Shown piece by piece: positions 24,887-41,611 of a stretch of DNA of 41,805 bases (positions are counted from its first letter, which is position 1; every line of letters starts with the position of its first letter). The notes beneath the pieces are model-generated. The model searched no databases and had not been told where the DNA came from. It was given only the letters and a program-made list of their open reading frames with translations. Position numbers and translations under genes: made by a program. Source of the stretch: a virus; the IMG/VR virus record IMGVR_UViG_3300006749_000029, positions 1 to 41,805 of that record. One strand, given 5' to 3'.

Positions 24887-27800
24887 ATGAACGAAGAAGC
24901 ATTACAGGTATTGTATGGACTCGCTAAAGGAGATGGCTATACAAAGAGTTATGAAGATTTTAAAGTCCTTATGGGTGGCAATTCAGATGCTGTTCAGCAG
25001 ATGTATACGTTAGCTAGAGCAGATGGATACACTAAAAACAAATCAGACTTTGATGTATTAGTTGGTTATGCACCTACATCTGCAGGCCCTGAGGCAGTAG
25101 AAGACTCATTAAAAAAAAAAGAAGATACGGTATCCGTATCGGAAGATGGTTCATTGGAATCAGCCGAGAAAACTGAACTTACTGACGAACAATCTCAATT
25201 TTTAGGAGGTCTTTTTGGCGGTTCTTTTTCACAGGAAGAATTAAAAGAAGGTTTTGAGCCTATGAAGTCTGTAGAGTATACTCGACAAGATGTGTACGAA
25301 CAACCTGAACGATTTAAGTTTGTTGAGGAAGGTGGCGTTGAGGTGGACCTTGAGGCATCAGACCCTAGTGTTCGTGCTGAAAATATTCAACGATATATAG
25401 ACAAGCTTGAGGGTGATTTATCCAATGCGCTTCAGGCCGATGTGCCTCCACCTACCACTGAGAGAGAGGTTATGTACGATAGGTTCGGGAATGTAGTATA
25501 TGACTCATCAATTGGTGATGAGCTGCAAAGAACAGCTAAGCGAATGCGTAATGCTAAAGATGCTGCACCAATACAGGAGGAGATTCAAGACCTTCAACTA
25601 AAGCTTGATGGTGCCAAGCTAGGTTTTGGGACTCAGCCGTCATTTAAAGAGGTGTATCAGGAGGCTTATAATCCTGAAACGAAGACCTTAGATAAACAAA
25701 AACTTATTGAGATGGGGGTACAAATACCCTTGTTACTTAATGATAACTCTTTTTTATTACGCTTAATGTCTCAAGCAGACAAAAGCACGGCTGCAAGGGA
25801 CCTATACAACTCTTATGTAGAAGACTACTATAACGACAAGAAGAAGAATGCAGGGTATGTATATTTGAATGGAGAGTTTGTAGACCCTAGCCAACCTATG
25901 CCGGGATATGGTTTTGATGCGGCAATTGATGCTGTTAATTTTAATACTATTGTAGGGGCAGAGGAAGAGGAGGCAGTAGAAAAGCTTAACAATATGTTTG
26001 AGCAGTACGGTTTTAAATTTCGTCAGGTCGGCTCATCAGACAGGCTTTCGGCTGAAGGTCCTGACGGAAAGCCACTAAGCTTTTTTGGTCGAAGTCAGCT
26101 CCCTCTTGACAATTGGACAAATGCTACTGATAAAAAATATGGGTCTGAGCTCCGAAGGGTTTTAGCTAATGCTTACTCAGCGGCAGAGTTATCAGAAGAA
26201 AAGATGCTTGAGCAGGCTATGGTTAAGCCATCAGACCCTAGCAAGGCTATTAAAAATGAGGTGATATCAGGAATAGTTGTTAAAGGAGCATCGTGGCAAA
26301 AGCAAGCTGTTAAAAGGATTGATAAGGACGCTGAAACATTAAATACCTTAAGTGCATTACTAAGTAGTCAAGAAATACTAATCAATCAAGCTGCGAAGAA
26401 AGCTGAAGACTTAAAGAATAGTCAGATGGTTGATGGACTATGGAAAAGTAATGAGGCTGAGCAAGAATACAATAACCTTATAAAGGAGACAAACGATATA
26501 GCGGAGGTCTATAAAGCCACATATAAAGCTGCGTTAAAGAAAGAAACCAATCTAAAGTCTGACGTATCTCAGATGCAGAAGTATGAAGGAGATAGAGCTA
26601 TGATGATGGCTGATATGTGGGACCTTAACAATGTCCCTGCACTTCTAGCTCAGAGTATTGGTGAAGGAGCAGGAGGAATGGTTTCCGGATTCTATGGATT
26701 AGCTGATGACGCATTTTCTAATTTAATAAATCTAGCAACAGGATATGATGAAAATGCTATAGGATATCAGACAGATGAAATGAGAAGAGAGCGTAAGGCT
26801 AATGTGTCTGAAGAGTTAAGAGGCGGTCTTGGTAGCTTAGCTACAGGAGGTGTGATTACAGACGCTAAAACATCTGAAGAAACAATAGCCGGAGTAAAAG
26901 ACCAATCATTTTTGCTAGGCACATTAATGGGTGTCGCAGAGTCCTTGCCTGCAATGGTTAGCGGTGGAGGCGTTGTATCTTTTGCAGCTCTTCAGATGGA
27001 TGGTTTAGCTAGAGAGATGGACAACATTCCTGAGTTTGCAAATATATCTGAGAATGAGAAGTTTCTTATACTTGCTCCTATTGCGACTGTATCAGGTATA
27101 CTAGAGAACACGGGTTATAGAAACGTACTAAATAAAAGCTCTATTGTAGGTAGGCTAACAGTAGAGGCATTAAAGAAGTTCGGGGCACAGACAGCAAAGG
27201 AGGGAACAAAGAGGACATTTAAAGAGATAATTGAGCGTTCAGTTATGAATAAGATAGCTAAAGGAGCTATTCTTTCAGGAGCAGCTTCTTTAGCTGAGAT
27301 GGAAACTGAAGCGGCTCAACAGATTTCCGAGACCTATATGAAAGAGATTTATGATTTAGTTAAGGGTCAGGACTTTTATAAGCAATCAATAGATATATCA
27401 AAGGGCGAGTTTTTTAATATGGAGTTTGCTGAGGAGATAGTTAAGGCAGGTGTTGCAGGAGCTATAGGTGGTGCAGTCATAGGTGCTCCTTCAGCCTATT
27501 CAAGTGCCGTTAAAAACAACACGCTACCTGAGATATCAGATGCTGCTTTCAATCTATTTACTATGACCACAACACCCGAGAGTGTTGAGAGAACATTAGC
27601 TGTTCAAAGAGCTGCATACAATGCTAAAGTAGGTGTAGAGATTAATCCTGAAACAGGACAGAAATATACACAAAAAGAGGTTGATGATACCTTACTTCAG
27701 TATGAGTATCTAATAGGTCAGAAGAATGAAATCAATCCTAATTGGGATGCCAAGTCACAGAAGCAGGTATTGGCTTTGTTGATGCAGAAGAAGAATATTG

Positions 27801-30800
27801 AGCAGAGTATAGAGGGATTAAACAAGGACACCACTAAAGACCAACAGAGACAGATAGAGATTTTAGAGGAGGACATAGAGGTGATATCATCAGCGGCTAA
27901 TAAGAACGCTGAGGAGGTTGTGAAAAAAGAATATGCCAAAGCAAAGCAAGAAGGATTCACCGGAACTATTGAGGCATTTAAATTTAGAGAGTCAGTAGAG
28001 AAAGCAGCTAAAGAAAAGCAAGCCCCTGTCACAGAGGATGTAGTTGAAGAGACTACCGTAACTGAAGAGGCTCCTGTAACTGAGGAGGAGCGTGCTCAGA
28101 TGCGTGAGGTATTGGGTGAACCCTTGACACAAGCTATTACTGAGGAAGCACCTGTAGTTGAGCAGGTTACTGAAGAGGTTGTAGAGGAGGCACCTGTAGT
28201 TGAGCAGGTTACTGAAGAGGTTGTAGAGGAGGCACCTGTAGTTGAGTCTAATGTTTTAACGCAGGATATTTACAATGAGTTTGTTAATACAGGACAAGTA
28301 CCTGCACCTATTGTTAATGCTATAGCTCAAAAAGTAAAACAAGCAGAACCACTTAATGAAATGGAGCAAGCGGTGTCTGTAGAGTTTGCACCTGACATAG
28401 AGGCTATTCTTATAGAAGACTCAGCAACAGAAGCTGTAGTTGAAGAAACGCCTGTAGTTGAGCAAATAACTGAAGAGGTGGTACAGGAAACACCTGTTAA
28501 AGAAGCACCTAAAAGAAAGACAAGAAAGAAGAAAGCTCCTGTTAAGAAAGAAGCTCAGATATCTGAACAGGTACAGAAAGAGATTGATAGGGCTGAAAGG
28601 TTAAGGGATAGAATTGTAGCTGATAAAACCAATAGATTATCTAGGACAAAAGGATTTGAACAGAAGGAAGACTTAAGAGATGAGATAAGACAGGACGAAA
28701 GAAAGTATAACAATATCATCACTGAGCTTAAGGAAGGTAAGCGTACTAAGTTTCAAGTTAAAGAAACACAAGAAACAAAAACAGATACCTCAAGGTATCA
28801 ACAGTTTGTATCTGTTCTTAAAAGGTCGTTCCCATCTGTAGAGGTGGTAACTACACAGGCTGAGTTTGCTACACTACTCAAGGAGACCGGGGCTAATGAG
28901 CTTATAACAAAAGACCAAAGTGTTTATGGTGCTGTCTACCAAGGCAAGCTATATCTTAACCCATCACTTGAGAACTACAACACACCTATCCATGAGTTCG
29001 GTCACGTATGGATGAACGTAGCTAAAGAGGCTAATCCTAAGCTATACGAGAAAGGTATTGGTCTTGTAAAGGGTTCTGAATATGAACAGCAAGTAAAAAA
29101 CAATCCTGCCTATAAAGATTCTACTGAACAGGAGATATTAGAGGAGGCATTAGCTACAGCTATTGGTGACAAGGGTGAGGCATTTGTCAAAGAATCAAAG
29201 AGAAAGAGCTTCAAGGATTGGCTTAGTACACTGTATGGATTTGTTAGAAAGCTTACAGGTATATCTAAGTATACAGCTGAGCAGCTTGATGATATCACAC
29301 TTGATGAGTTCACACAGGCAGTGGCAGTAGACCTGCTATCAGGTGAGCAGTTATTCGAGGGTGCTGAGATAACAGATATGGGTGATACCCTCCAACTTAT
29401 GGCTGAGAAGGCTAATGTCAAACCTTCAATGTCTGCTCAGAATATTATAAAGAAAGCTAGGGCTGCTGAGATTCGTGATGCAGTGATTGTGGACTACCTA
29501 ATGAGTGAGAAGGATTTGACTCGTAAGCAGGCTGTCAGTGCAATCAAGAGAGCGAACAGAGGCAACCTAAAGGATGCGGTTAAGAGGCTGTTCAATAGTG
29601 TTGAGGACATTACTGACATCAAAGAGAAGGACGCACAACTTATTAAGGACATACTGAAGTTTGATAGGTCTATTACTAGAGCTGATAAGATGGCTCAGAA
29701 AAAAGCTAAAGATGAAATCAAGAGTAGGCTTAAAGCTATACAGAGAAAATCCAAAGGCAAGCTATCTCAGTCACAGCTTCTTGCAGTTACAAATAGATTT
29801 GCCAATGTAAATCTATCAAGTGAGAAGTCTATTGATTCATTCGTTGACTATATGCAGAAGGTTTTCTCAGATGTTGATTATGCAGCAAAGATGACAAGCC
29901 TAAACAAAAGCATCAAGCAGGCAAAGAAAAACATCAATAGCAAGATTGGTAGAGGAGCAGATGGTTTAGCTTATGAGCTAAGGAGACTGTTAAACATAAG
30001 CCCTGCTATTATTCCTGACTCCGTACTTGAGGAATACTCCGACCTTGTTACTTCATTCGGTGAGAGAAAGACTGTGCTTAACTTGAAGGATTCTGCTGAG
30101 GTAAAAGAAACAATAGCAAAAATATTTGAGGAGCTATCAGTTCAGAACTCAGAGCTTGGTGAGCTTTCAGAAAGGTTTGAAGCCTTTGAGGATAAAGAGT
30201 TTACTAAGACAGGAGCAGTTAGCTTTGCTAAGACAGTTGCTCAGATGCTCAAGGATAAGGTCATAACAGAAGACGAGGCTAAGCTGATGAGAAAGTTTAA
30301 GTCAGAGATTATGCCTATTGAAAAAGCAGAGGGCAAGACAGAGGAAGAGAAGCAGAAAGAAATGGAGGAGGAGAAGGAGATTCTAATAAATAATATTAAA
30401 AAATCTTCTGTTAATGTTGACCGAATAGAGCTAGCAATTGAGAAAGCTTTAGTAAAAGATTTTGCAAGACTTATAAAGACTGATGCCGTCAATGACTTGA
30501 ACAATGCACAGCTTAAGAATATTGAGAAGGCTATTGACAATATAAACAATGGGTATGTCACTCACTATGTTCAGTTGGCATCAGAGAACTTGGTATCAAT
30601 CAACAGGTCTAAGACAGGAGCTGAAGGCATCAGGGATGCTAAGCCACTTGCCGTCAGTACACAGATAGCAAAAATTAAAACGCTGTATAAAGAAGGCTCA
30701 GACGCTAATAAGTTTTACAAGCTTATAGAAAGAAATCCTCTGATAAATATTGACATGGTTCTTGGAGATTTTACAAGTAAAAGAATATTTAATTCTGTCC

Positions 30801-33028
30801 TTGAAGAATCCGCAGAAGCGGTTACGACTTTTAACACGGAGCTAAATAAGGTCTACAACACTATCGAGGATGCAGAGGTACAGCTACAAAAGAAGTTTAA
30901 AAACAACGGCAATAAGATATTAGAATCTAAGTATAAGCAGATGGCTTATATGGTGCAGCAAGAGTTTGAATCAAACCCTAACAACTCACAAGTGAGTCCT
31001 GCCGCTGAGGTTATAGAGGCTACAATTAAAAAGCTTAGAGACAGTAATCAAAACTATGAGGCAGATATATTACAGGAGATATTAGAAGATTATTCTACAG
31101 ACGGTCAAATAGATTTAAAGAAAATAGATGATAGTTTTGTTTATGCCGAGCTCAATATGATAAAGACGGTTCAAGATATAAACTCCAAACTAACCGATAA
31201 GGCTACATATACAGCCTCAGTTATTAGAGGAGAATCAATAGAGCCTTTGAATGACTACATCCATCAGTCCGTTTTAAATACAGATGGTGTAGCAATGGAT
31301 GACTCCCGTGCTCTTAGTGAAAACTATATGGAGAACATCAAGCCATCGACTAAAGCCAAGAACCTTATTGAAAGAACAAAGGGAGCTAAGGCTATCAACT
31401 TTGATATTACTGCATCTGTTAGGAGAGGAGCTAAGATGACTCTTATGGACTACCATCTAACCGCTCCACTGAGGACCGCTAATAGAACTCTAAATAAGAT
31501 GGAGGAGCAGCTTGATAATACGGGTCAGCAAAGACAGATATTCTTAGGTGTTAGGGACGCATACAATCAGGCTATAGCTGATGTACTTGAGAATACATTT
31601 ACAAGCAGTAGTATTGGTGAGCAAATATTTCAGTATGCAGCCAAGCAGGGATATAGGTCTATGCTTGCAAGTGTACCAAGGGTTTTTGGTGAGCTACTTT
31701 CTAACTATAGCTTTGCATTAATTAATCCTGTTGAGTTTACTGAAGGAAGTAAACCTAAAAATATGAAGGTTGCTTTTAGTGAGAGAGGGGTTGAGGTAAT
31801 GAATAACGTAAGGAGTAAGGAGACCGCAAGGATATATGGTGAGGGATTATCCGGTAGATTTGTAGAGACATCTATGATACAAAAGAAGATGGGAATGGCT
31901 GCTGACTCAGCAAAGAATCCTGTAGTCAATAGAGTGAACCAAGGTCTTTCATATCTTAAAAAATATCCTAGGGGCGTTGAGTTTGTTGCTGACTTTATGA
32001 TTACCACCCCGGATAAATTGGTTACAAGACCGATGTGGTTTGGTACATTTGCAACTGAGTTTAAAAAGATTACAGGAGAAGAAGTTAATTTCGATAAGAT
32101 TGCAGAGAATGATACTGCATATATGGAGAAGTTTGAGAAGGCTATCAATGAAGCGAAGAAAAAAGCAGACTCAAATTCCGTTCTTATTGGTGCAACAGAT
32201 AATCCATTGCAGGGAATATTAAAGAATAAGAAGAGAGCTTCTGATAAAGCTTCTATAATCAAAACTATAAACAGCTTTATGCAGAGATTCTTATTGTTTG
32301 AATACAATGCATTTAGAAAAGGAATGTATGCAGCGATGGGGAGGGGTGATATATCGAGAACCAAAGGTGTTTTACTTATGACTGCTGTATCGGCAAGGAT
32401 GACTATGTATACACTAATGATACCTATATTAAACTCACTTATGTTTGGTGATGATGATGAGGAAAAAGAAGAAAGTATATATACAAGGGTTTACCGAGCA
32501 TTACTTTCCACTGCAACAAATTTATTTATTGGAAGAGACTTTGGTGCTATAGTGAAAATGATACAGAACTATTATATTGAATGGGCGAATGAAGAGTATG
32601 GAGAAGGTTTAGGTATTAGAGAAGGCGAGTACGACCCGTTCAAGAATCAAGTTCAATTTAATATTATACCTGCTGAAAAGTCTTATAAAGAAACTGATGT
32701 AGCTTCAGACATACTTCCTAATTTGCTAGGCCCTTATACACCTCTTGTAAAGTCCCTTATATTTTCAACCAATAAACTTTTCTTTTCTAAGCCAAAGAAA
32801 GAAGAGGCTGCTAAAGAAAGACAACGTAGAGAAATAGAAGAGAGAATACCTCTTGAGATTTTAGGTCTGACAGGATTAGTTCCTTTCTATAGAGACTTTA
32901 GAAAGAGTTTGAATGAAGATATATACCAAGGACTTAGAGCTAAAAGCAGTGAAGGTAGTAGCAAACGTAAGTCAGGTAGAAAAGGTAGGTCGGGTAGAAA
33001 AGGTAGGTCAGGTAGAAAAAATAGATAG
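24887..33028 (+). CDS. Giant internal virion protein with HEFGH metallopeptidase motif (T7 gp16-like position)
   Basis: At 2713 residues this is by far the largest gene in the window. Two tandem motifs open it: LYGLAKGDGYTKSYEDFKVLM and MYTLARADGYTKNKSDFDVLV (residues 8-59). Helical regions and Gly/Ala-rich hydrophobic stretches follow (about 590-620, 690-735 and 855-885). From about 1050 to 1210 it has an acidic linker with perfect repeats. A zincin motif H1369-E-F-G-H1373 lies in NTPIHEFGHVWM, a likely zinc metallopeptidase. Long charged helices follow, then a late hydrophobic segment (about 2494-2522, LLMTAVSARMTMYTLMIPILN) that could be membrane-active. The tail is basic (SGRKGR repeats). 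It resembles polyvalent proteins injected with phage DNA and would act during ejection or just after entry. Confidence 0.8.
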   Translation: MNEEALQVLYGLAKGDGYTKSYEDFKVLMGGNSDAVQQMYTLARADGYTKNKSDFDVLVGYAPTSAGPEAVEDSLKKKEDTVSVSEDGSLESAEKTELTDEQSQFLGGLFGGSFSQEELKEGFEPMKSVEYTRQDVYEQPERFKFVEEGGVEVDLEASDPSVRAENIQRYIDKLEGDLSNALQADVPPPTTEREVMYDRFGNVVYDSSIGDELQRTAKRMRNAKDAAPIQEEIQDLQLKLDGAKLGFGTQPSFKEVYQEAYNPETKTLDKQKLIEMGVQIPLLLNDNSFLLRLMSQADKSTAARDLYNSYVEDYYNDKKKNAGYVYLNGEFVDPSQPMPGYGFDAAIDAVNFNTIVGAEEEEAVEKLNNMFEQYGFKFRQVGSSDRLSAEGPDGKPLSFFGRSQLPLDNWTNATDKKYGSELRRVLANAYSAAELSEEKMLEQAMVKPSDPSKAIKNEVISGIVVKGASWQKQAVKRIDKDAETLNTLSALLSSQEILINQAAKKAEDLKNSQMVDGLWKSNEAEQEYNNLIKETNDIAEVYKATYKAALKKETNLKSDVSQMQKYEGDRAMMMADMWDLNNVPALLAQSIGEGAGGMVSGFYGLADDAFSNLINLATGYDENAIGYQTDEMRRERKANVSEELRGGLGSLATGGVITDAKTSEETIAGVKDQSFLLGTLMGVAESLPAMVSGGGVVSFAALQMDGLAREMDNIPEFANISENEKFLILAPIATVSGILENTGYRNVLNKSSIVGRLTVEALKKFGAQTAKEGTKRTFKEIIERSVMNKIAKGAILSGAASLAEMETEAAQQISETYMKEIYDLVKGQDFYKQSIDISKGEFFNMEFAEEIVKAGVAGAIGGAVIGAPSAYSSAVKNNTLPEISDAAFNLFTMTTTPESVERTLAVQRAAYNAKVGVEINPETGQKYTQKEVDDTLLQYEYLIGQKNEINPNWDAKSQKQVLALLMQKKNIEQSIEGLNKDTTKDQQRQIEILEEDIEVISSAANKNAEEVVKKEYAKAKQEGFTGTIEAFKFRESVEKAAKEKQAPVTEDVVEETTVTEEAPVTEEERAQMREVLGEPLTQAITEEAPVVEQVTEEVVEEAPVVEQVTEEVVEEAPVVESNVLTQDIYNEFVNTGQVPAPIVNAIAQKVKQAEPLNEMEQAVSVEFAPDIEAILIEDSATEAVVEETPVVEQITEEVVQETPVKEAPKRKTRKKKAPVKKEAQISEQVQKEIDRAERLRDRIVADKTNRLSRTKGFEQKEDLRDEIRQDERKYNNIITELKEGKRTKFQVKETQETKTDTSRYQQFVSVLKRSFPSVEVVTTQAEFATLLKETGANELITKDQSVYGAVYQGKLYLNPSLENYNTPIHEFGHVWMNVAKEANPKLYEKGIGLVKGSEYEQQVKNNPAYKDSTEQEILEEALATAIGDKGEAFVKESKRKSFKDWLSTLYGFVRKLTGISKYTAEQLDDITLDEFTQAVAVDLLSGEQLFEGAEITDMGDTLQLMAEKANVKPSMSAQNIIKKARAAEIRDAVIVDYLMSEKDLTRKQAVSAIKRANRGNLKDAVKRLFNSVEDITDIKEKDAQLIKDILKFDRSITRADKMAQKKAKDEIKSRLKAIQRKSKGKLSQSQLLAVTNRFANVNLSSEKSIDSFVDYMQKVFSDVDYAAKMTSLNKSIKQAKKNINSKIGRGADGLAYELRRLLNISPAIIPDSVLEEYSDLVTSFGERKTVLNLKDSAEVKETIAKIFEELSVQNSELGELSERFEAFEDKEFTKTGAVSFAKTVAQMLKDKVITEDEAKLMRKFKSEIMPIEKAEGKTEEEKQKEMEEEKEILINNIKKSSVNVDRIELAIEKALVKDFARLIKTDAVNDLNNAQLKNIEKAIDNINNGYVTHYVQLASENLVSINRSKTGAEGIRDAKPLAVSTQIAKIKTLYKEGSDANKFYKLIERNPLINIDMVLGDFTSKRIFNSVLEESAEAVTTFNTELNKVYNTIEDAEVQLQKKFKNNGNKILESKYKQMAYMVQQEFESNPNNSQVSPAAEVIEATIKKLRDSNQNYEADILQEILEDYSTDGQIDLKKIDDSFVYAELNMIKTVQDINSKLTDKATYTASVIRGESIEPLNDYIHQSVLNTDGVAMDDSRALSENYMENIKPSTKAKNLIERTKGAKAINFDITASVRRGAKMTLMDYHLTAPLRTANRTLNKMEEQLDNTGQQRQIFLGVRDAYNQAIADVLENTFTSSSIGEQIFQYAAKQGYRSMLASVPRVFGELLSNYSFALINPVEFTEGSKPKNMKVAFSERGVEVMNNVRSKETARIYGEGLSGRFVETSMIQKKMGMAADSAKNPVVNRVNQGLSYLKKYPRGVEFVADFMITTPDKLVTRPMWFGTFATEFKKITGEEVNFDKIAENDTAYMEKFEKAINEAKKKADSNSVLIGATDNPLQGILKNKKRASDKASIIKTINSFMQRFLLFEYNAFRKGMYAAMGRGDISRTKGVLLMTAVSARMTMYTLMIPILNSLMFGDDDEEKEESIYTRVYRALLSTATNLFIGRDFGAIVKMIQNYYIEWANEEYGEGLGIREGEYDPFKNQVQFNIIPAEKSYKETDVASDILPNLLGPYTPLVKSLIFSTNKLFFSKPKKEEAAKERQRREIEERIPLEILGLTGLVPFYRDFRKSLNEDIYQGLRAKSSEGSSKRKSGRKGRSGRKGRSGRKNR
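28148..28246 (+). repeat. Perfect 42-base tandem repeat inside the giant virion gene
   Basis: Two identical 42-base units (28148-28189 and 28190-28231) and the first 15 bases of a third encode APVVEQVTEEVVEE repeats. Diverged relatives follow at about 28432-28498. Exact nucleotide identity shows a recent duplication, and the unit number is probably variable between related phages. It encodes an acidic, probably unfolded linker ahead of the metallopeptidase region. Confidence 0.9.
32972..33025 (+). repeat. Three 18-base repeats encoding the basic tail SGRKGR
   Basis: Three consecutive 18-base units (32972-32989, 32990-33007, 33008-33025) encode SGRKGR, SGRKGR and SGRKNR at the very end of the 2713-residue protein. 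They differ by only one base between the first two units and a few in the third. The Arg/Lys-rich tail is suited to binding packaged DNA or the adjacent core. Confidence 0.85.
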
Positions 33029-34442: not shown

Positions 34443-35027
34443 CTATATACCATTCAGCATTGTGTTAAGTTTCTTTTGAAAGGATTTGACATTCTTATAA
34501 CTGACTCTCTCTCTTATTGTTTTTACAATATCATCATACCTTTCATACTCCTGTAGTTGCGAATGTAAATATTTATTTTCTCTTTTCAAAGCGTTATTTA
34601 TAATTTTAAGCTCTAGCACCTCTGACTTTAGGTTGTTAATACTGCAGCTAACAAACTCCTCAACGCTCTCTTCTTGTAGTTCATACGTAGTTACATCGTA
34701 GTCAATCTTTTCGTCCATATCTTTTAGATATTGGCGACACTCATTGTAGTATTCTCTGAACAGCTTGTCGTGACTGTAGTATATCTCAAACATCTTAAGG
34801 CTGTGAATAACTGTAGCGTGATGCATACCTATTGCTAAGCCAATGTTTATTTTGGTATACCCCTCGTCAAGCATTATCTTACAGAAGATACTCCGAGCAT
34901 ATATGTACGGAGTAAGCCTTCTTTTTTTCTTTATATCTATATTGAAGTATCCATTCAATATAGCAATGAGCTTACTCTCTATATGCATATTCCTTTTAAT
35001 TGTTTTTGTGGTTTCTACTAAGTGCAT
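34443..35027 (-). CDS. DnaA domain IV-like DNA-binding protein with coiled coil (194 aa)
   Basis: Residues about 34-82 match the C-terminal DNA-binding domain of the bacterial initiator DnaA: RRLTPYIYARSIFCKIMLDEGYTKINIGLAIG followed by GMHHATVIHSLK, corresponding to the DnaA signature G.DHTTVxHA (here G67, H70, T72, V73, H75). The AAA+ ATPase that makes DnaA an initiator is missing entirely. Instead, residues 100-185 are acidic and helical, with a coiled coil (LKSEVLELKIINNALKREN) that may mediate dimerisation. It could bind DnaA-box-like or other repeats to control phage replication, or interfere with host initiation. A second ATG at 34988 (MHIESK) is a possible start. The upstream start overlaps the previous gene by 10 bases. 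Confidence 0.8.
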   Translation of the reverse strand: MHLVETTKTIKRNMHIESKLIAILNGYFNIDIKKKRRLTPYIYARSIFCKIMLDEGYTKINIGLAIGMHHATVIHSLKMFEIYYSHDKLFREYYNECRQYLKDMDEKIDYDVTTYELQEESVEEFVSCSINNLKSEVLELKIINNALKRENKYLHSQLQEYERYDDIVKTIRERVSYKNVKSFQKKLNTMLNGI

Positions 35028-35344
35028 TGTGTTAATATCTTTTTATCATTAATGTAATCCAAGTATGTGTCGCAGTCTGTCTCAGAGATTTCTAAAAATA
35101 AAGTAACCTCTCCCTCCTGCTTCATATAGGTAAGCTCAAAGAACATAGGCTCACCCTCTCTTACTATACCTCCCACCATCTGCGTCTGTCCATTCCTTAC
35201 AGGGAGACATCCTTCAAATGTATCCATCTGTGATAGAATCTCCTCTGTCTGATTCTTTTCAAACTCGGCTAGTGCCATAAACATAGACCCGTTTATCTCG
35301 TAGTCTACCCAATCATCCTCTAAATATTTCTGTTCTAAATCCAT
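35018..35344 (-). CDS. Hypothetical early protein (108 aa)
   Basis: An acidic protein starting MDLEQKYLEDDWVDYEINGS, with ALAEFEKNQTEEILSQM (helix) and beta-prone segments (GEPMFFELTYMKQEGEVTLFLEIS). No catalytic motif, membrane helix or signal peptide is seen. It overlaps the VRR-NUC gene by 32 bases at its start and the DnaA-like gene by 10 bases at its end, a tightly packed translational chain. It may act with one of these partners, but the sequence does not say how. Confidence 0.68.
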   Translation of the reverse strand: MDLEQKYLEDDWVDYEINGSMFMALAEFEKNQTEEILSQMDTFEGCLPVRNGQTQMVGGIVREGEPMFFELTYMKQEGEVTLFLEISETDCDTYLDYINDKKILTQCT

Positions 35345-35552
35345 AATCTTTTAATTCTTTTAGTCTGTACTCCTGTAACTTTGATGCCTTTCCCTTAGGC
35401 CCTTTTATTTCTGAGAATAACACATTGCAGTTAGGGGGTATTGCTATCAGGTCAGGTATGCCATTCTTGTTGGTCTTTACTAGCTTGATAACGTAGTACC
35501 CCTCAGATTCAAGTTGCTTAATTCTTTTAGATTGGATTTGTTGCTCTGTCAT
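35313..35552 (-). CDS. VRR-NUC-type nuclease (79 aa)
   Basis: The 79-residue protein has the compact VRR-NUC pattern of the PD-(D/E)XK superfamily. An N-terminal helix contains E15 (KRIKQLESEGYYV), followed by GIPDLIAI with catalytic D34, then E48-I-K50 (FSEIKGPKG) and a later Q60 within a helix ending YGFRTEIFRG. Stand-alone proteins of this family are known to cleave branched DNA such as Holliday junctions. It begins 4 bases inside the end of the SF2 helicase gene (ATGA overlap), implying joint translation. Resolution of recombination or packaging intermediates is the most likely job. Confidence 0.88.
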   Translation of the reverse strand: MTEQQIQSKRIKQLESEGYYVIKLVKTNKNGIPDLIAIPPNCNVLFSEIKGPKGKASKLQEYRLKELKDYGFRTEIFRG

Positions 35553-36790
35553 CCTAACAAATTTACAAAATCCTTTTTAAAATAATTTACTGTATACGTC
35601 TTCTTCTTTGATACTGCTTTGTATATATCATCCTCTATCCCACGCTCACTGAATATCCAATAGACATCACTCTCTAGTCTATCCCTTGTTGTCATTCTGT
35701 CACGACTCTGCCAATAGCTTGTCGCACTGAAGTCAATGTTGTAGTAGACCAATGCATCTGCCTGCCTCAATGATATCCCTTCCCTGCCGGATACTATCTG
35801 TAGTGCGATAGATTTATCTGTGCTCTCAAACTCGCTCAGCTCTGTTGTTATGCCGTCTCCGTAGGCTTCTTTGATTGCCTTGAGCTCTGCTGTGAACTTA
35901 TAGAATATCCCTATCTTCTTTCCCTTGAACCTCTCCTTAATGAAGTTCGCTTTAGTCATATCAATAACCATGCTATTACCCGACTCAAACTTTACTGTGC
36001 CTGAGTATATCTGATGTAGCTTCATCATCAGCTTTACTGCCGTGTCAGCTAGTATTACCTCATCCTTTCCCTCAACCACTAGGTCCTTGCTTAGTCTCTT
36101 TGCTAGGGCATACGTCTTGTCCTCTAGTGTTACCCTAAGTATATGCTCCCTTGTATCTACCTCGAAGCCTGCCTCCTTCTGTGAGTAGTTTATGGTGTAG
36201 TGAGACATTGCCTTGGTGATACTATCAAGTCCGTGGCTATAGTCATTGATAAAGTTTCCGTTTATCTTTCTCTGCTTTACCTTCACCCAATCATTAGCAA
36301 ACTTATAGAAGCTTGAGTATCTACTGAATGGGTTGTTACGTATCGCATACACCTGATGATACATCTGTGAGTATGACTCGGGTGTCGGTGTGCCTGACAT
36401 CAGTATGACATAGGGGTCGTGTCTTTGTATGAGATTCTTTACATCTTTGGCTCTCTTGCTTGGCTTCGGGAAAGCTCCCATCGAGTGTGCCTCATCACAT
36501 ATTATTACGTCCCATCTTATGTTTGGTATCTTATGCATCGACTCATAGTTGATTGTAAAGAGACAGTAGTTGGACGGGCATAGCATATCGAAGTCATCCA
36601 TGATACTTGACATGGCCTTCTTCTTGGTTAAGAACAATACGTTTTCAACATTGAGTTGTTCACAAATACCTAGGCTTGTCAATGTCTTACCTGTTCGTAC
36701 CTCCATCGCAAGATACAAGAAGCCATATGAAAACAGCATCTCCGTACCCTTGGTTATTATATCCTTCTGATAATCTCTAAACTCTACCAT
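35549..36790 (-). CDS. SF2 (SNF2/DEAD-type) DNA helicase
   Basis: A 413-residue superfamily 2 helicase. Motif Q-like FRDYQKDII opens it, then motif I MEVRTGKTLTS (K35), motif Ia-like LFLTKKKAM, motif II D99-E-A-H in VIICDEAHSMG, motif III LMSGTP and, in the second RecA domain, QIVSGREGISLRQADALVYYN (motif V) and YWQSRDRMTTRDR (motif VI with the arginine finger region). ATP-driven translocation on DNA, and possibly strand annealing or remodelling, fits. Many phages carry one such helicase in the replication operon. It lies between a secreted-protein gene upstream and a VRR-NUC gene that overlaps its stop. Confidence 0.92.
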   Translation of the reverse strand: MVEFRDYQKDIITKGTEMLFSYGFLYLAMEVRTGKTLTSLGICEQLNVENVLFLTKKKAMSSIMDDFDMLCPSNYCLFTINYESMHKIPNIRWDVIICDEAHSMGAFPKPSKRAKDVKNLIQRHDPYVILMSGTPTPESYSQMYHQVYAIRNNPFSRYSSFYKFANDWVKVKQRKINGNFINDYSHGLDSITKAMSHYTINYSQKEAGFEVDTREHILRVTLEDKTYALAKRLSKDLVVEGKDEVILADTAVKLMMKLHQIYSGTVKFESGNSMVIDMTKANFIKERFKGKKIGIFYKFTAELKAIKEAYGDGITTELSEFESTDKSIALQIVSGREGISLRQADALVYYNIDFSATSYWQSRDRMTTRDRLESDVYWIFSERGIEDDIYKAVSKKKTYTVNYFKKDFVNLLG

Positions 36791-36794
36791 AGTG

Positions 36795-37259
36795 TTAGTT
36801 ATTAAATGTAAACTTATAGTTAGTCTTAGTGCTGTCCTCTATGTGGTTCATTGTCACTATGTATTGTCCACTCTCCTTTATCACCTTGATAAACTCATCG
36901 TACTCTGCACCCTCAAAGTATATCATACCATCAAAACAAAAAGCCTCGACAGACCTTAGCTCTCCTGACGGTTGCTTGATGATAGCCCATTGGAATGTAT
37001 CCCACTTCCACTTCTCCTCCTCTAGTTTACCGAAGGGGTACACTGTAATGATAAAGGTTTTGTCGACAAGGTCGTGTTCCAAGAAGTAGGTACAGGTCTT
37101 GTTGGTTTTTTTACCACGACTGAACTTTCCTACAGATGTTTGATGTAAGAATATCTCACCTGTCTCTACGCCATTCTCATCGACATAGTCTCCCACGTCC
37201 CATTGAGAGTGGGCTGTTACTGATAGCATCAATGATGCAAATAAAAATAATTGTTTCAT
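36795..37259 (-). CDS. Secreted protein of unknown function (154 aa)
   Basis: Residues 1-19 (MKQLFLFASLMLSVTAHSQ) are a classic signal peptide with likely cleavage after AHS, leaving an N-terminal Gln as is common in Bacteroidota. The mature part begins WDVGDYVDENGVETGEIFLHQ and contains VGKFSRGKKTNKTCTYFL and TFIITVYPFGKLEEEKWKW, a beta-rich pattern seen in proteins of Bacteroidota and their phages. It has no lipobox cysteine. The gene sits in the middle of a replication operon, 4 bases before the helicase gene and 10 after the primase-helicase. An envelope role such as blocking superinfection or altering the host surface is possible. Not shown. Confidence 0.78.
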   Translation of the reverse strand: MKQLFLFASLMLSVTAHSQWDVGDYVDENGVETGEIFLHQTSVGKFSRGKKTNKTCTYFLEHDLVDKTFIITVYPFGKLEEEKWKWDTFQWAIIKQPSGELRSVEAFCFDGMIYFEGAEYDEFIKVIKESGQYIVTMNHIEDSTKTNYKFTFNN

Positions 37260-37269
37260 TGTGTTTGAT

Positions 37270-39687
37270 TTAATTCATTAGTTTATACTGCGGGTCCACC
37301 TCGGGAGCCTTCTTTATTATTATCCATCGACCTGTTGAGTCTCGGCCCTCCTCAGGCTTGAGGCCCTCCTTAAACAAAGAGTATGCCACAAGCCACTGAT
37401 AGAACTTTGTCCTTGAGATTGTCATCTTCGCCTTGGGTCCGTAGTCAGGATACTCCTGTACAAAATCAAAGTACAGGTCCTGCTTATATAACTTAACACC
37501 CGGTATCAGATTCCTATTCTCACCCTGCCCATGCAACAGACCACACCACTCAATGAAGTCATGCGTTGTCTCTGCAGATAGCTGACGAACCTTTAGGTTT
37601 ACAAAGGCAGACTTGCGTAGCCCCTTCTTCAGATACATCTGAAGGCATCCTATCATGTAGTTGTCAAAGTAGCACCACTCCTCATCACTCCAATCTCCAA
37701 ACATCAGCTTACCAAACTCATCCAATGGGGTGTAGTTCTTGGTGTAGTGCTGATGCAGTTCCAACTCCCACTTCCTCCTAGCAAAGCTATTACCTGCACC
37801 CTTGATGGCATAGTTAGTTGTGATTGCAATCTTGGGTGACTTACTGAATGGTATCTTGATAGCATCCTTGTTCTTCTTCTCTAGTGTCAGACCCTCTGTG
37901 ACTACGCTAAACAATCGCTCGAAGTCAAAGTGTTTCTTCACGTCATCGAACACAAGTATCTGTGTGTCAGCACTTACAAGCTGATAAGCAAACGACCTCT
38001 CGAAAGCAAACGACTTGCCATCAATCGTCACTACCTTCTTCATCTTTGATAGTGCGTTCATAAATATCCCCTTGCCTGTACCTCCCTCGGGGTTGTCTGA
38101 TATCACCTCATCATTGAGGATTACAGCAGGGCAGTACGATAGGTTCTTGTGTGCGTGAAGTAGGAATCCAATCGTAGACTCCATACTATCTACCCTAGAC
38201 TCATGACCTGCACAGATGTTTGCTATGAACTTACGATACACACTATCGCTACCATCACATATCTTGAACACCCTATCAATGACGTGGTCCTTCCATACAT
38301 ACCCACCGAGGTCCAAGTAATCTATCGGTGTGACCTCTCCCTTTGTCACACGAACAGCACAGTTCTTGTAGTATAGGTATGCCGTGTCCTTGGTATCCTC
38401 GATGAAGTATATATCTATTGTAGATAGCAGTGTCAAGAAGTCCTCTCTGAACAATCTTGTTTGGTCTGCGAAGTAGTTGTATATGGACATATCATCCAAG
38501 TCAATGACGTGGTTTAGTATGAAGTCCTTAATCTCTTTCTCTGATGTGTGGTCGATGAGGTTGTTAGTAACCTTTACAAAGACATAGTTCTTGCTACCCT
38601 CGGGACAATACTTGTAGAACCCATTGTCCTCCAAGAAGTCCTTGAATAATATGTGAACAATCTTTATCGTACCCTTGTCGTTCTTTGACCAAAATACCTG
38701 CTTGGATTCATCATCTGCAATCCGATTCATTACTGAGTCTATAGTCCCACCATCTAAGTCTGACTCCTCTAACTGATGGCGTACCTCTTTTTTTGATACA
38801 CCCCTCCGTAGACTCTGCTTGATTGTATTGATAGCCTCCTCGTCCTCGTAATACTTAGTCCCAAAGTTCTGCGTGTTTCTATATGCCGAGTCAATCGTTC
38901 TTGATATCTCCTCCAATGAGAAGTCCTCATTGACAAACTGATTGAGTACATATCCTGCAAGGCTCTTGTTTATTCCATAGTCATTGAATGCCATAGCCAA
39001 TACGTACACGTTCTGATTTCTCTGTCCCTCAATCATCGGATACTTCTTTGTCCACCACTTGACTAGGATGTCCACCACCTTGTTCTCGTCTGTGATTGGT
39101 ATCGTTGGTGCATCTCGGTGTGCTACATACTCCTTGTACTCCACCTCCTCAATGGTGTCCCATATAGATGAGTTCTCATTGATAAATATTAGTGGGTCAT
39201 AGCTCTCGTAACATACACGACTAAGATTCTTACAGGTCTTGTCGAAGTAGTCTGAGTTGTAATGATTCTCTAGTGAGTTGAAATAGTTTACGTGGTTGTC
39301 CACATCCTGTGGTATCTTAACCAATACCTTTAGTCCATTCCCCGATGGAGATATGAATACAGAGTAGGTGTACTTGTCCTTACTGATAGACTCCTTGTCT
39401 TGCAGTAGGTCCTTCTGCTTCTCATAACCATCGAAGTCCAAGCATATCAATCCACTATGCTCAATGATTGATGAGTCGTTCCTCTTGTTGAATGTACCAC
39501 TGAAGCATACTGCAGGTAGGTTCTTCTTAATCTCGTTCCTCTCTGACTTGTTCTTCTCTGCTCGTATCTTCTTAACAAGCTCCTTGGATGAGCCGTCCTT
39601 TACTCTCTCAAGAATTTTATCTACTCCACGGTAGAAAGGAGTCTCTGTCTCCCTAATGTTTTTGAATATTGTGATGTTTGATGTCAT
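37270..39687 (-). CDS. Primase-helicase (VirE-N/BT4734-like, PriCT and SF3 helicase)
   Basis: This 805-residue fusion carries replication functions. Residues 55-125 are a VirE-N/BT4734-like domain of the archaeo-eukaryotic primase group: LPAVCFSGTFNKRND, CLDFDG with D84 and D86, and FISPSGNGLKVLVK (S113-K120). A PriCT-like helical region follows at about 200-290 (LAMAFNDYGINKSLAGYV). The C-terminal half holds an SF3 helicase: Walker A PEGGTGKGIF (K539), Walker B QILVFDDV (D581-D582) and sensor region KIAITTN. It would prime and unwind phage DNA. Its start lies 5 bases from the first of the paired TGTCGA sites of the adjacent intergenic region, which suggests that it or a partner acts on that sequence. 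Confidence 0.88.
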   Translation of the reverse strand: MTSNITIFKNIRETETPFYRGVDKILERVKDGSSKELVKKIRAEKNKSERNEIKKNLPAVCFSGTFNKRNDSSIIEHSGLICLDFDGYEKQKDLLQDKESISKDKYTYSVFISPSGNGLKVLVKIPQDVDNHVNYFNSLENHYNSDYFDKTCKNLSRVCYESYDPLIFINENSSIWDTIEEVEYKEYVAHRDAPTIPITDENKVVDILVKWWTKKYPMIEGQRNQNVYVLAMAFNDYGINKSLAGYVLNQFVNEDFSLEEISRTIDSAYRNTQNFGTKYYEDEEAINTIKQSLRRGVSKKEVRHQLEESDLDGGTIDSVMNRIADDESKQVFWSKNDKGTIKIVHILFKDFLEDNGFYKYCPEGSKNYVFVKVTNNLIDHTSEKEIKDFILNHVIDLDDMSIYNYFADQTRLFREDFLTLLSTIDIYFIEDTKDTAYLYYKNCAVRVTKGEVTPIDYLDLGGYVWKDHVIDRVFKICDGSDSVYRKFIANICAGHESRVDSMESTIGFLLHAHKNLSYCPAVILNDEVISDNPEGGTGKGIFMNALSKMKKVVTIDGKSFAFERSFAYQLVSADTQILVFDDVKKHFDFERLFSVVTEGLTLEKKNKDAIKIPFSKSPKIAITTNYAIKGAGNSFARRKWELELHQHYTKNYTPLDEFGKLMFGDWSDEEWCYFDNYMIGCLQMYLKKGLRKSAFVNLKVRQLSAETTHDFIEWCGLLHGQGENRNLIPGVKLYKQDLYFDFVQEYPDYGPKAKMTISRTKFYQWLVAYSLFKEGLKPEEGRDSTGRWIIIKKAPEVDPQYKLMN

Positions 39688-39691
39688 AACT

Positions 39692-39849
39692 GTGTCGATT
39701 TTATGTCGATTTTAATTTCTTAACTGTCTGATTATCAGAGGTAGTGTCGATAATGTCGATTTTCTTTTCCTATCGTAGATAAAATAAAAAATAAAAAAAA
39801 AGAATACTATATACTCTATATATAGAGAAACTTTTTCGACATTCGACAC
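39692..39849. repeat. Three paired GTGTCGA/ATGTCGA sites, candidate replication origin or operator
   Basis: This stretch between the primase-helicase start and the recombination operon has six TGTCGA sites arranged as three pairs, each GTGTCGA followed by ATGTCGA. Pair A is at 39692-39710 (11 bases between repeat starts). Pair B is at 39744-39760 (9 bases). Pair C is inverted at 39836-39849 (7 bases, halves abutting). Between B and C are an A-rich run (39779-39802) and the palindrome CTCTATATATAGAG (39814-39827). A further palindrome, TCTGATTATCAGA, is at 39727-39739. Iterons, an AT-rich stretch and a palindrome next to a primase-helicase look like a replication origin, but a repressor operator array is also possible. 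This also describes the 221-base gap at 39688-39908, which holds no gene I can support. Confidence 0.6.
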
Positions 39850-39860
39850 ACTTGATTGGT

Positions 39861-39886
39861 AGAAAAAGGGGAGTATCCTCCCCTTT
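39861..39886 (-). terminator. Rho-independent terminator of the recombination operon
   Basis: Read on the minus strand, AAAGGGGAG and CTCCCCTTT form a perfect nine-base-pair stem (39865-39873 with 39878-39886) around a four-base loop, followed by TTTTTCT. It lies 22 bases downstream of the SSB-like stop, so it ends the recombination operon. The primase-helicase operon must have another promoter. Confidence 0.9.
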
Positions 39887-39908
39887 GATTAACCAATAAA
39901 CACTAGTC

Positions 39909-40172
39909 TTAGAAGGGTAGTCCTTCCTCCTTAGCTTCTTTCTTAGGTGTGGCATCCTCGGTCTTTGCTTCGTAGGTATCTAGCTCTACGTAGTAGTTTC
40001 CACTTCGTGCTTGGTTCACATTGAAATTAATCCAACCGTTCTTCATGTGTTCCTTAACGAATGCCATAGCATCGTCCACCTTAAGTGATAGTCTCCCCAC
40101 TACAAACTCGGGGGCATTGTCTCTTCTCTTAAAAGAGAATCCATTAGCAAAAATTTTCTCGTCTTGTGACAT
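39909..40172 (-). CDS. SSB-like single-stranded DNA-binding protein (87 aa)
   Basis: A short OB-like protein: EKIFANGFSFKRRDNAPEF at the start, then FVVGRLSLKVDDAMAFVKEH and GWINFNVNQARSGNYYVELDTYEA, with alternating strands and a pair of aromatic residues for base stacking. The tail is acidic and ends KEEGLPF, much like the C-terminal (D/E)..LPF tip with which bacterial SSBs recruit partners. It is the last gene of the recombination cassette and is followed by a terminator. At 87 residues it is shorter than SSB, so it is likely a phage-specific single-strand binder. The tail is the strongest evidence. Confidence 0.65.
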   Translation of the reverse strand: MSQDEKIFANGFSFKRRDNAPEFVVGRLSLKVDDAMAFVKEHMKNGWINFNVNQARSGNYYVELDTYEAKTEDATPKKEAKEEGLPF

Positions 40173-40252: not shown

Positions 40253-40999
40253 TTATATCTCTTCCTTCACGTAGAAGTTCTGTATGTCTATGGTAGATTC
40301 CTCAGAGAAGAACTTATTGTACACCTCTATTGCTCGGTGCATCTTCTCCTTTCCTCTTGCATAGAAGTCCTCGTTACCCGTGAACATTCCCATACGTCCT
40401 GTCTTCTTCTCTATTACCAAGAACATCATCGGCTTACCGAATAGCAGTTGGTATATGTAGGCTTGACTATCGTAGTTGTACTTCCTTGCGTTCCACTTGA
40501 AGTCGTCAATGCTTGACGTTGTCTTAAGGTCTACGACATAATCTTTTCCAACGATGTCTGCCTTTCCTTTCCACTGTGTAAGGCTTTCTCCACACTTGTA
40601 AGTAACTATATTGGGTTGCTCAAATGTATTTCCCTTTGCGTGTATCAGCTCAAAGAAATCAAGGTTGCCCTTCATCTTATCCACCAATCCCTCTATGGTC
40701 TCTTTCTCTGTGCGTAGCAGTGCTACCTCCTTACCTGTCTCCTCAATGAACTCCTTGTATGTCTTGGTGTTGCGTGATGCAGCGTCTACCCACACCACGT
40801 CCTTAGCCTTCTCGGGTTCAAGAATCAACTGATGGAAGTACCTTCCCTCTGCAAAGTTCTTGTTGTCGGGACGTGATACCCCGAACTGCTCGGGGTCTTT
40901 GAGTAGTGTGCCGATGTCTGAGTTCGATAGGTACTGCTTACCAATACCCTTATAATACTGCGTGTCATCTCGCAGTAGAGTTATTACATTCTCATCCAT
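40253..40999 (-). CDS. PD-(D/E)XK exonuclease, RecB/PDDEXK_1-like (248 aa)
   Basis: The catalytic motifs of the RecB-type nuclease family are visible: H56 in GRYFHQLIL, D148 in KGKADIVG, D157-L-K159 in VVDLKTT, and Q179-x3-Y in DSQAYIYQLL. Two-metal cleavage of double-stranded DNA ends to leave single-stranded tails is expected. The gene sits 3 bases downstream of the annealing-protein gene, the usual exonuclease and annealase pair. It resembles the DUF3799/PDDEXK_1 family that often accompanies such annealases. It overlaps none of its neighbours. Confidence 0.9.
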   Translation of the reverse strand: MDENVITLLRDDTQYYKGIGKQYLSNSDIGTLLKDPEQFGVSRPDNKNFAEGRYFHQLILEPEKAKDVVWVDAASRNTKTYKEFIEETGKEVALLRTEKETIEGLVDKMKGNLDFFELIHAKGNTFEQPNIVTYKCGESLTQWKGKADIVGKDYVVDLKTTSSIDDFKWNARKYNYDSQAYIYQLLFGKPMMFLVIEKKTGRMGMFTGNEDFYARGKEKMHRAIEVYNKFFSEESTIDIQNFYVKEEI

Positions 41000-41002
41000 A
41001 GC

Positions 41003-41611
41003 CTATGATTTTAAAGCGTCTGCAATCTGCTTCTCTTGTTTCTTATTCACGTTATACTTCTGCTCTATGTTAGCTATCAACTGCTTGAGTCCAAGCTGTT
41101 TGTTCTCCTTGACGTAGTTAAGCATATCAAACATCTTGTCATCGGGTATGTCTGTAAGTGTTACGTTCTTCTTATTTGGTGTAGGCTTCTTCTTTGGTGT
41201 AGCCTTGACTTCTTCTTCGGGTACGTCCTCTCCTGTCCATAGCGACAAGCCTAGTCCATGCATTGCAATAGCCTTAGTCGTTGCTCTTTGAATGGTCTTG
41301 TTCACGTCAGTAGATGTTAGCTTGTCTACTGATATGGCATTGTTTCTAAAATCCATAACGGGAAGCATATCAATATGCTCTACATCATTGACTATGATAC
41401 CTACCTTTACCCATGCAGTCCTTCCATCCGTAAAGAAATTAAATCCTGTGTGGTCGTGTTCGTATATCACTCGTTGTGCATCGGGATAGTTCTGCTTGAG
41501 CAAATGCCATGCATTTGCCCACGATAGATAGTCTAGTCCTCCCTTCTTCTCTACCTTATCCCTTACGTTGATTGTTGATAGTGTCTTGTAACTTGATTGT
41601 GCTTTGCTCAT
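41003..41611 (-). CDS. Single-strand annealing protein (DUF1071/Sak-like)
   Basis: This 202-residue protein has the DUF1071 pattern: KGGLDYLSWANAWHLLKQNYPDA, then a beta region with FNFFTDGRTAWVKVGIIV and LPVMDFRNNAI, and the helix VNKTIQRATTKAIAMHGLGLSLWTGED. DUF1071 belongs to the Erf/Rad52-like annealing protein superfamily. A lysine- and proline-rich linker (about 140-150) leads to a C-terminal helical tail. It would anneal complementary strands made by the nearby exonuclease, allowing recombination, end repair or recombination-dependent replication. Confidence 0.88.
   Translation of the reverse strand: MSKAQSSYKTLSTINVRDKVEKKGGLDYLSWANAWHLLKQNYPDAQRVIYEHDHTGFNFFTDGRTAWVKVGIIVNDVEHIDMLPVMDFRNNAISVDKLTSTDVNKTIQRATTKAIAMHGLGLSLWTGEDVPEEEVKATPKKKPTPNKKNVTLTDIPDDKMFDMLNYVKENKQLGLKQLIANIEQKYNVNKKQEKQIADALKS

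Follow-up and report, generated by a model that had tools for sequence, protein, structure and literature searches.

The minus strand of the window (the whole 41,805-nucleotide stretch analysed, IMG/VR record IMGVR_UViG_3300006749_000029) encodes at positions 34443-35027 a protein of 194 residues, hereafter L, which is a stand-alone DnaA domain IV with a coiled coil and without an AAA+ domain. In the related phage loci, L and a second stand-alone DnaA domain IV protein, S, bracket the replication module, inside which an array of short boxes is conserved upstream of the primase. We tentatively propose, with a confidence somewhat short of an even chance, that S and L form a DnaA-derived, ATPase-free pair reading sites at a phage origin or operator, L being probably a dimeric adaptor. 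Computation established the fold and the lack of an AAA+ domain, together with the protein pair, the gene order, the array and the concerted evolution of its boxes.

The L gene was delineated from its open reading frame, from homologues at the equal gene position and from a Pfam match. Searched alone, L had its best match with Bac_DnaA_C (PF08299; E 8e-4, residues 31-78) at 19.8 bits, below the family cut-off of 31.5 bits. The relatives P0001 (34.5 bits) and P0002 (45.2 bits) scored above this cut-off, the protein at the gene position of L in the phage genome MW202828.1, alignable to L across the domain, reached 34.5 bits, and 54 of 59 L homologues matched PF08299 individually. A profile built from these 59 homologues recovered the E. 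coli DnaA domain IV with its box (1j1v, E 8e-10), followed by other DnaA structures. The profile comparison with the DnaA C-terminal family suggested in the original prediction thus fell below threshold for L alone but succeeded with its relatives and with the homologue profile; since the relatives match, the assignment of L is firm although its own Pfam score is sub-threshold. A search of NCBIfam with L gave no match, and in PHROGs L matched only an unnamed family; the PHROG families of these DnaA domain IV proteins (phrog_34542 and phrog_16091) carry no function annotation.

Structure prediction agreed with this assignment. The AlphaFold model of L, obtained with a 58-sequence alignment, had a mean pLDDT of 88.1, and its five top PDB matches in Foldseek were all DnaA structures (for 3pvp, rmsd 1.4 and TM 0.85 normalised by target). 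The VIA Z-scores were 15.1 for 3pvp and 14.4 for 1j1v, and dropped to 6.7 at the first fold unrelated to DnaA. The original prediction had placed a DnaA signature at residues 34-82; the identity was right but the limits were not, the domain, a helix-turn-helix plus a basic loop, extending over residues ~14-106 (34710-34988). The profile alignment to 1j1v paired R37, R45, H69, H70, A71 and T72 of L with R399, R407, D433, H434, T435 and T436 of E. coli DnaA, which we take to be its box-contacting residues. The equivalents of R399, R407, H434 and T436 are kept; D433 is replaced by His and T435 by Ala, and the His at the D433 position makes canonical box binding by L doubtful.

The rest of the protein is acidic and coiled-coil, as had been anticipated. 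Residues 97-136 form an acidic linker with a net charge of -7, and residues 122-162 (34542-34664) a single predicted helix of 41 residues with block-mean pLDDT values of 66-96, mostly above 85, and a heptad periodicity (p 0.016). Two C-terminal helices follow in the model (residues 165-191; 34455-34535), which among close relatives are about as conserved as the recognition helix. Compared with known proteins, the coiled coil produced only weak generic coiled-coil matches. No AAA+ domain was matched in Pfam and the model contains only the helix-turn-helix domain, the coiled coil and small helices, so that the expectation of a DnaA domain IV without ATPase was borne out.

L belongs to a replication module located on the minus strand. 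From 5' to 3', this module comprises a Sak-type single-strand annealing protein (41003-41611), an exonuclease VIII-type PDDEXK protein (40253-40999), a small protein at the SSB position defined by conserved gene order (39909-40172; "SSB-like" is a working label only), the array (39688-39908), a primase-helicase with a BT4734-like N domain, PriCT-1 and DUF5906 in Pfam (37270-39687), a 154-aa protein, an SNF2/ResIII-type DNA helicase identified in Pfam and PHROGs (35549-36790), a VRR-NUC nuclease identified in Pfam (35313-35552), a conserved small protein immediately upstream of L (35018-35344) and L itself, followed by HNH and PDDEXK nucleases. The 154-aa protein between primase and helicase (36795-37259, minus strand) looks secreted, with a signal-peptide-like N terminus (MKQLFLFASLMLSVTAHSQ), and was also found in a few close relatives. 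Elsewhere in the window, a 2713-aa open reading frame on the plus strand (24887-33028), with a long acidic and proline-rich middle and a C-terminal KSGRKGRSGRKGRSGRKNR repeat, is probably virion-associated.

Relatives were retrieved from viral contigs with three primase queries and the L profile, and 179 loci with distinct full primases were kept; a search of viral contigs with the L sequence alone found no relatives, whereas the L profile did retrieve them. The family numbers given here thus concern phages retrieved through similarity of their primase or DnaA domain IV proteins, with open reading frames called mechanically. S (median 100 aa) lies upstream of the annealing protein and was present in 97 of the 100 loci in which the sequence ahead of the annealing gene exceeds 2 kb. 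L (median 174 aa) lies downstream of the helicase; of the 144 loci having more than 2.5 kb beyond the helicase, 131 carry it in this position. The model of S (pLDDT 90.3) had DnaA domain IV as its sole convincing structural match, and all 43 S proteins scanned matched PF08299. The window is devoid of S because the contig stops 194 bp past the annealing gene; S is found ~390 bp upstream of this gene in loci L088 and L089, and we expect the S gene of the window phage at this same distance, off the contig end. The host of these phages is probably a member of Bacteroidota, and relatives occur in Flavobacterium and other Bacteroidota phages as well as in Flavobacteriales and Cytophagales MAGs. A single MAG, labelled Aliivibrio sp. 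(Ust_30), contained three different contigs of the family (L320, L321 and L323), probably through mis-binning.

The array, a candidate origin and/or operator, lies 4.7 kb from the L gene and is located between the SSB-like gene and the primase family-wide in our alignments. The original prediction was right in placing L in a replication operon next to such an array, and the TGTCGA pairs noticed earlier are real, with six copies of TGTCGA/TCGACA in this 221-bp intergenic region for 0.064 expected (P 9e-11). Along the minus strand, there is first a terminator-like hairpin, GGGGAG...CTCCCC, with a T run behind it (39868-39883), which is present in the family alignment, was also given by a pattern scan and would end the SSB-like transcript. 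It is followed by boxes 1-2, a TGTCGA pair in the opposite orientation to boxes 3-6 (39836-39848), then by a DUE-like AT-rich tract between the inverted box pairs (39760-39835) and by boxes 3-4 (TCGACATTATCGACA; 39745-39759), the first of which also matches a -35-like hexamer. A conserved near-palindrome (TCTGATAATCAGA; 39727-39739), with GATAAT 17 nt past box 3 as a possible -10 element, separates them from boxes 5-6 (TCGACATAAAATCGACA; 39693-39709), a few bases ahead of the primase start codon. This layout is conserved in the family, in the order hairpin and T run, inverted box pair, T-rich tract, direct pair, TGATAATCA block, second direct pair and primase start, and the AT content between the box pairs has a family mean of 82-85% versus a locus mean of 62%. 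Rfam gave no match.

Over 168 phages, the 230-bp stretch preceding the primase was enriched 44-fold in ATCGACA and 61-fold in TTATCGACA, a sequence that a single base separates from the DnaA box of E. coli, TTATCCACA. In GACA-class phages, the density of TCGACA was 8.2/kb in the array versus 0.445/kb overall, the flanks of other genes being near or below background, and at least four boxes were present in 78 of 99 fully flanked loci versus 6.9% of control windows inside the primase gene. The canonical box TTATNCACA was found only 3 times across the 168 arrays, and the window holds two copies, none of them in the array. The earlier suggestion that L recognises DnaA boxes or phage sites is thus upheld in part for phage sites, the array being conserved with the protein family, but not for canonical boxes. 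A depletion of canonical DnaA boxes (38 versus 75 in a first-order model) was considered and abandoned, 18% of letter-shuffled controls being as low. The boxes also switched together between GACA and AACA: for box 3 versus box 4, 5.9 of 9 independent contrasts were concordant and none opposite (median p 0.03), and other box pairs switched in the same direction with weaker support. Such concerted switching is expected of sites read by one trans-acting factor, whichever this factor may be.

In the model that we propose, S and/or L would bind the array boxes as sequence readers. L, probably dimeric via its coiled coil, could bridge boxes and recruit to the AT-rich tract the primase-helicase, the SNF2-type helicase or some other partner, the array serving as a putative phage origin. 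Site reading would in this way be DnaA-derived, the opening of DNA being left to other proteins. We counted in favour of this model the folds, the gene order and co-occurrence, the enrichment of the boxes and their confinement, the AT tract, the concerted switching and purifying selection, and against it the flat GC skew, a promoter-like pattern, the box-bearing loci without L, the degenerate L helix of one subclade and the fast divergence of L. GC skew does not change across the array, which leaves origin activity without independent support.

The strongest rival of the origin model is that the array is a promoter-operator at which S and/or L repress or activate the primase operon, DnaA being also known to act as a transcription factor. 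The array could indeed be, or include, a promoter or operator, since the terminator-like hairpin ahead of it implies that the primase must have its own promoter in this region. Box 3 plus 17 nt plus GATAAT (39731-39759, minus strand) agrees with the sigma-70 pattern in 10 of its 12 positions, and only in box 3 is T favoured as the second base, but the 601-bp scan gave two sigma-70-like sites, not above shuffles (1.6 expected), and promoters of the TTGACA/TATAAT type are not known to be used by the sigma factors of Bacteroidota. The position of boxes 5-6 next to the start codon also speaks for this reading. Against it, no boxes were present upstream of other module genes such as S, and a simple operator would need fewer than the six boxes which, in two orientations, surround the AT-rich tract. 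We consider this explanation rather unlikely.

Coming back to the pair-at-array model, the losses observed in individual loci bear on which of the two proteins reads the boxes. Eight fully flanked loci retained S and the boxes in the absence of L, with the VRR gene abutting the next nuclease in some of them; L is therefore not required for the array. Loci L106-L108 have L and boxes without S, L011 has kept L after losing both S and the boxes, and L295 has boxes with neither S nor L found nearby. Judged by these losses, S follows the array no less closely than L does, and S and L may be partly redundant. In L011, the gap between the SSB and primase genes is reduced to about 40 bp and is box-free (L011:3753-3796), a natural co-loss of S and array. 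In a subclade formed by L119, L124, L140, L155 and L159, L has a degenerate recognition helix (KKSRYxAxYYL), and the boxes and S persist wherever readable. A loss of the palindrome or inverted boxes specific to phages without L was suggested by a crude-pattern palindrome count and rejected after reading ten sequences, in which the block was kept.

No other gene of the module diverges as much as L (30-43% identity versus 46-80% for its neighbours). At 85-90% primase identity, its median identity was 43% and that of its neighbours 62-80%, and the L proteins of the window and of locus L087 are 37% identical for primases that are 95% identical. Its dN/dS of 0.146 is the highest of the module and its dS reaches 0.75 versus about 0.4 elsewhere. 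L is clearly under purifying selection, and its raised dS looks as it would after replacement by recombination. Such fast divergence is odd, fitting poorly with a fixed origin binder. The most variable part of L lies outside its DNA-binding helices. When the box base (GACA/AACA) was compared with the recognition-helix residues, D433 was associated with GACA boxes at 85% clustering (p 0.02) but not at 80%, without being the top column and with only six independent contrasts.

The divergence of L could alternatively mean that S alone reads the array, L being a separate fast-evolving effector, for instance a decoy or antagonist of the host origin or DnaA boxes, or a superinfection exclusion protein. 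The high dN/dS of L and its raised dS, as with repeated replacement, would agree with such a role, as would the eight loci with S and boxes but no L and the retention of L in L011. This is opposed by the presence of L and boxes without S in L106-L108, by the conservation in L of the R399, R407 and H434 equivalents and by the location of its most variable part, and an effector acting on host boxes fits poorly with the His at the D433 position. We judge this second explanation unlikely. That L acts as a decoy or recruiter of host DnaA through canonical DnaA boxes, an idea of the original prediction, seems very improbable, as the near-absence of TTATNCACA from the arrays and the replacement of D433 by His in the window protein weigh more than its DnaA domain IV fold and several conserved DNA-contacting residues.

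A more specific version of the pair-at-array model can be formulated for this widespread phage family. Its replication would start at an origin with DnaA boxes changed by one base, through a pair of DnaA domain IV proteins lacking the motor, in which S would be the conserved reader and L a coiled-coil adaptor that evolves fast, and phage initiation would be separated from host DnaA; we regard this version as possible but doubtful. If the proposal is true, DnaA-type site recognition would be separable from the AAA+ motor in a protein usually viewed as a motor plus a DNA reader, one lineage having kept the reader alone, twice. These aquatic and probably Bacteroidota phages, which form a common group, would also gain a candidate origin, and natural DnaA domain IV variants would become available for the study of changes in box specificity.

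Among known systems, the closest to L in structure is the domain IV of bacterial DnaA (PF08299; 1j1v, 3pvp), with which it shares the fold (Z 14-15), the Arg of the basic loop, another Arg and, in the recognition helix, the His/Thr. In contrast to bacterial DnaA, L is devoid of domains I-III, hence of ATP binding and filament formation, has His instead of D433 and carries a coiled coil C-terminal to domain IV, and its neighbourhood contains TCGACA-type boxes instead of TTATNCACA. Stand-alone phage proteins are already annotated as "DnaA protein" or "DnaA helix-turn-helix" in Olleya phage Harreka_1, Flavobacterium phages tooticki/mumin, Cellulophaga phi19:3 and Pelagibacter phage HTVC035P. They resemble S and L in being short DnaA domain IV proteins adjoining replication or recombination genes, but those that we searched gave one match each, versus the two proteins S and L here. 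A "replication initiation protein DnaA" is also named for the Polaribacter phages P12002L/S in a paper on their genomes (PMC4615864), a likeness of name alone. Podoviridae sp. ctfjg026 (MW202828.1) has the same module in the same order as the window, with a 75% identical primase, and contains both S ("dnaA", UOF82492.1) and L ("chromosomal replication initiation protein", UOF82498.1), annotated by name only, the array being unannotated. The literature searched, in which phage DnaA genes are touched upon by name only, yielded no functional study and no description of S and L with the array; single phage DnaA helix-turn-helix proteins are thus already annotated, and it is the arrangement of S, L and array that is described here.

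In its supposed mode of action, the system is comparable to phage lambda O, an ATPase-free initiator which reads repeats adjoining an AT-rich tract, likewise within the replication module, and whose DNA-binding domain is unrelated to DnaA domain IV. The comparison of S, L and the array with lambda O and iteron-type initiators is one of presumed working principle; a feature of iteron-type phage origins, repeated sites and an AT-rich tract within the replication module, is present in these phages.
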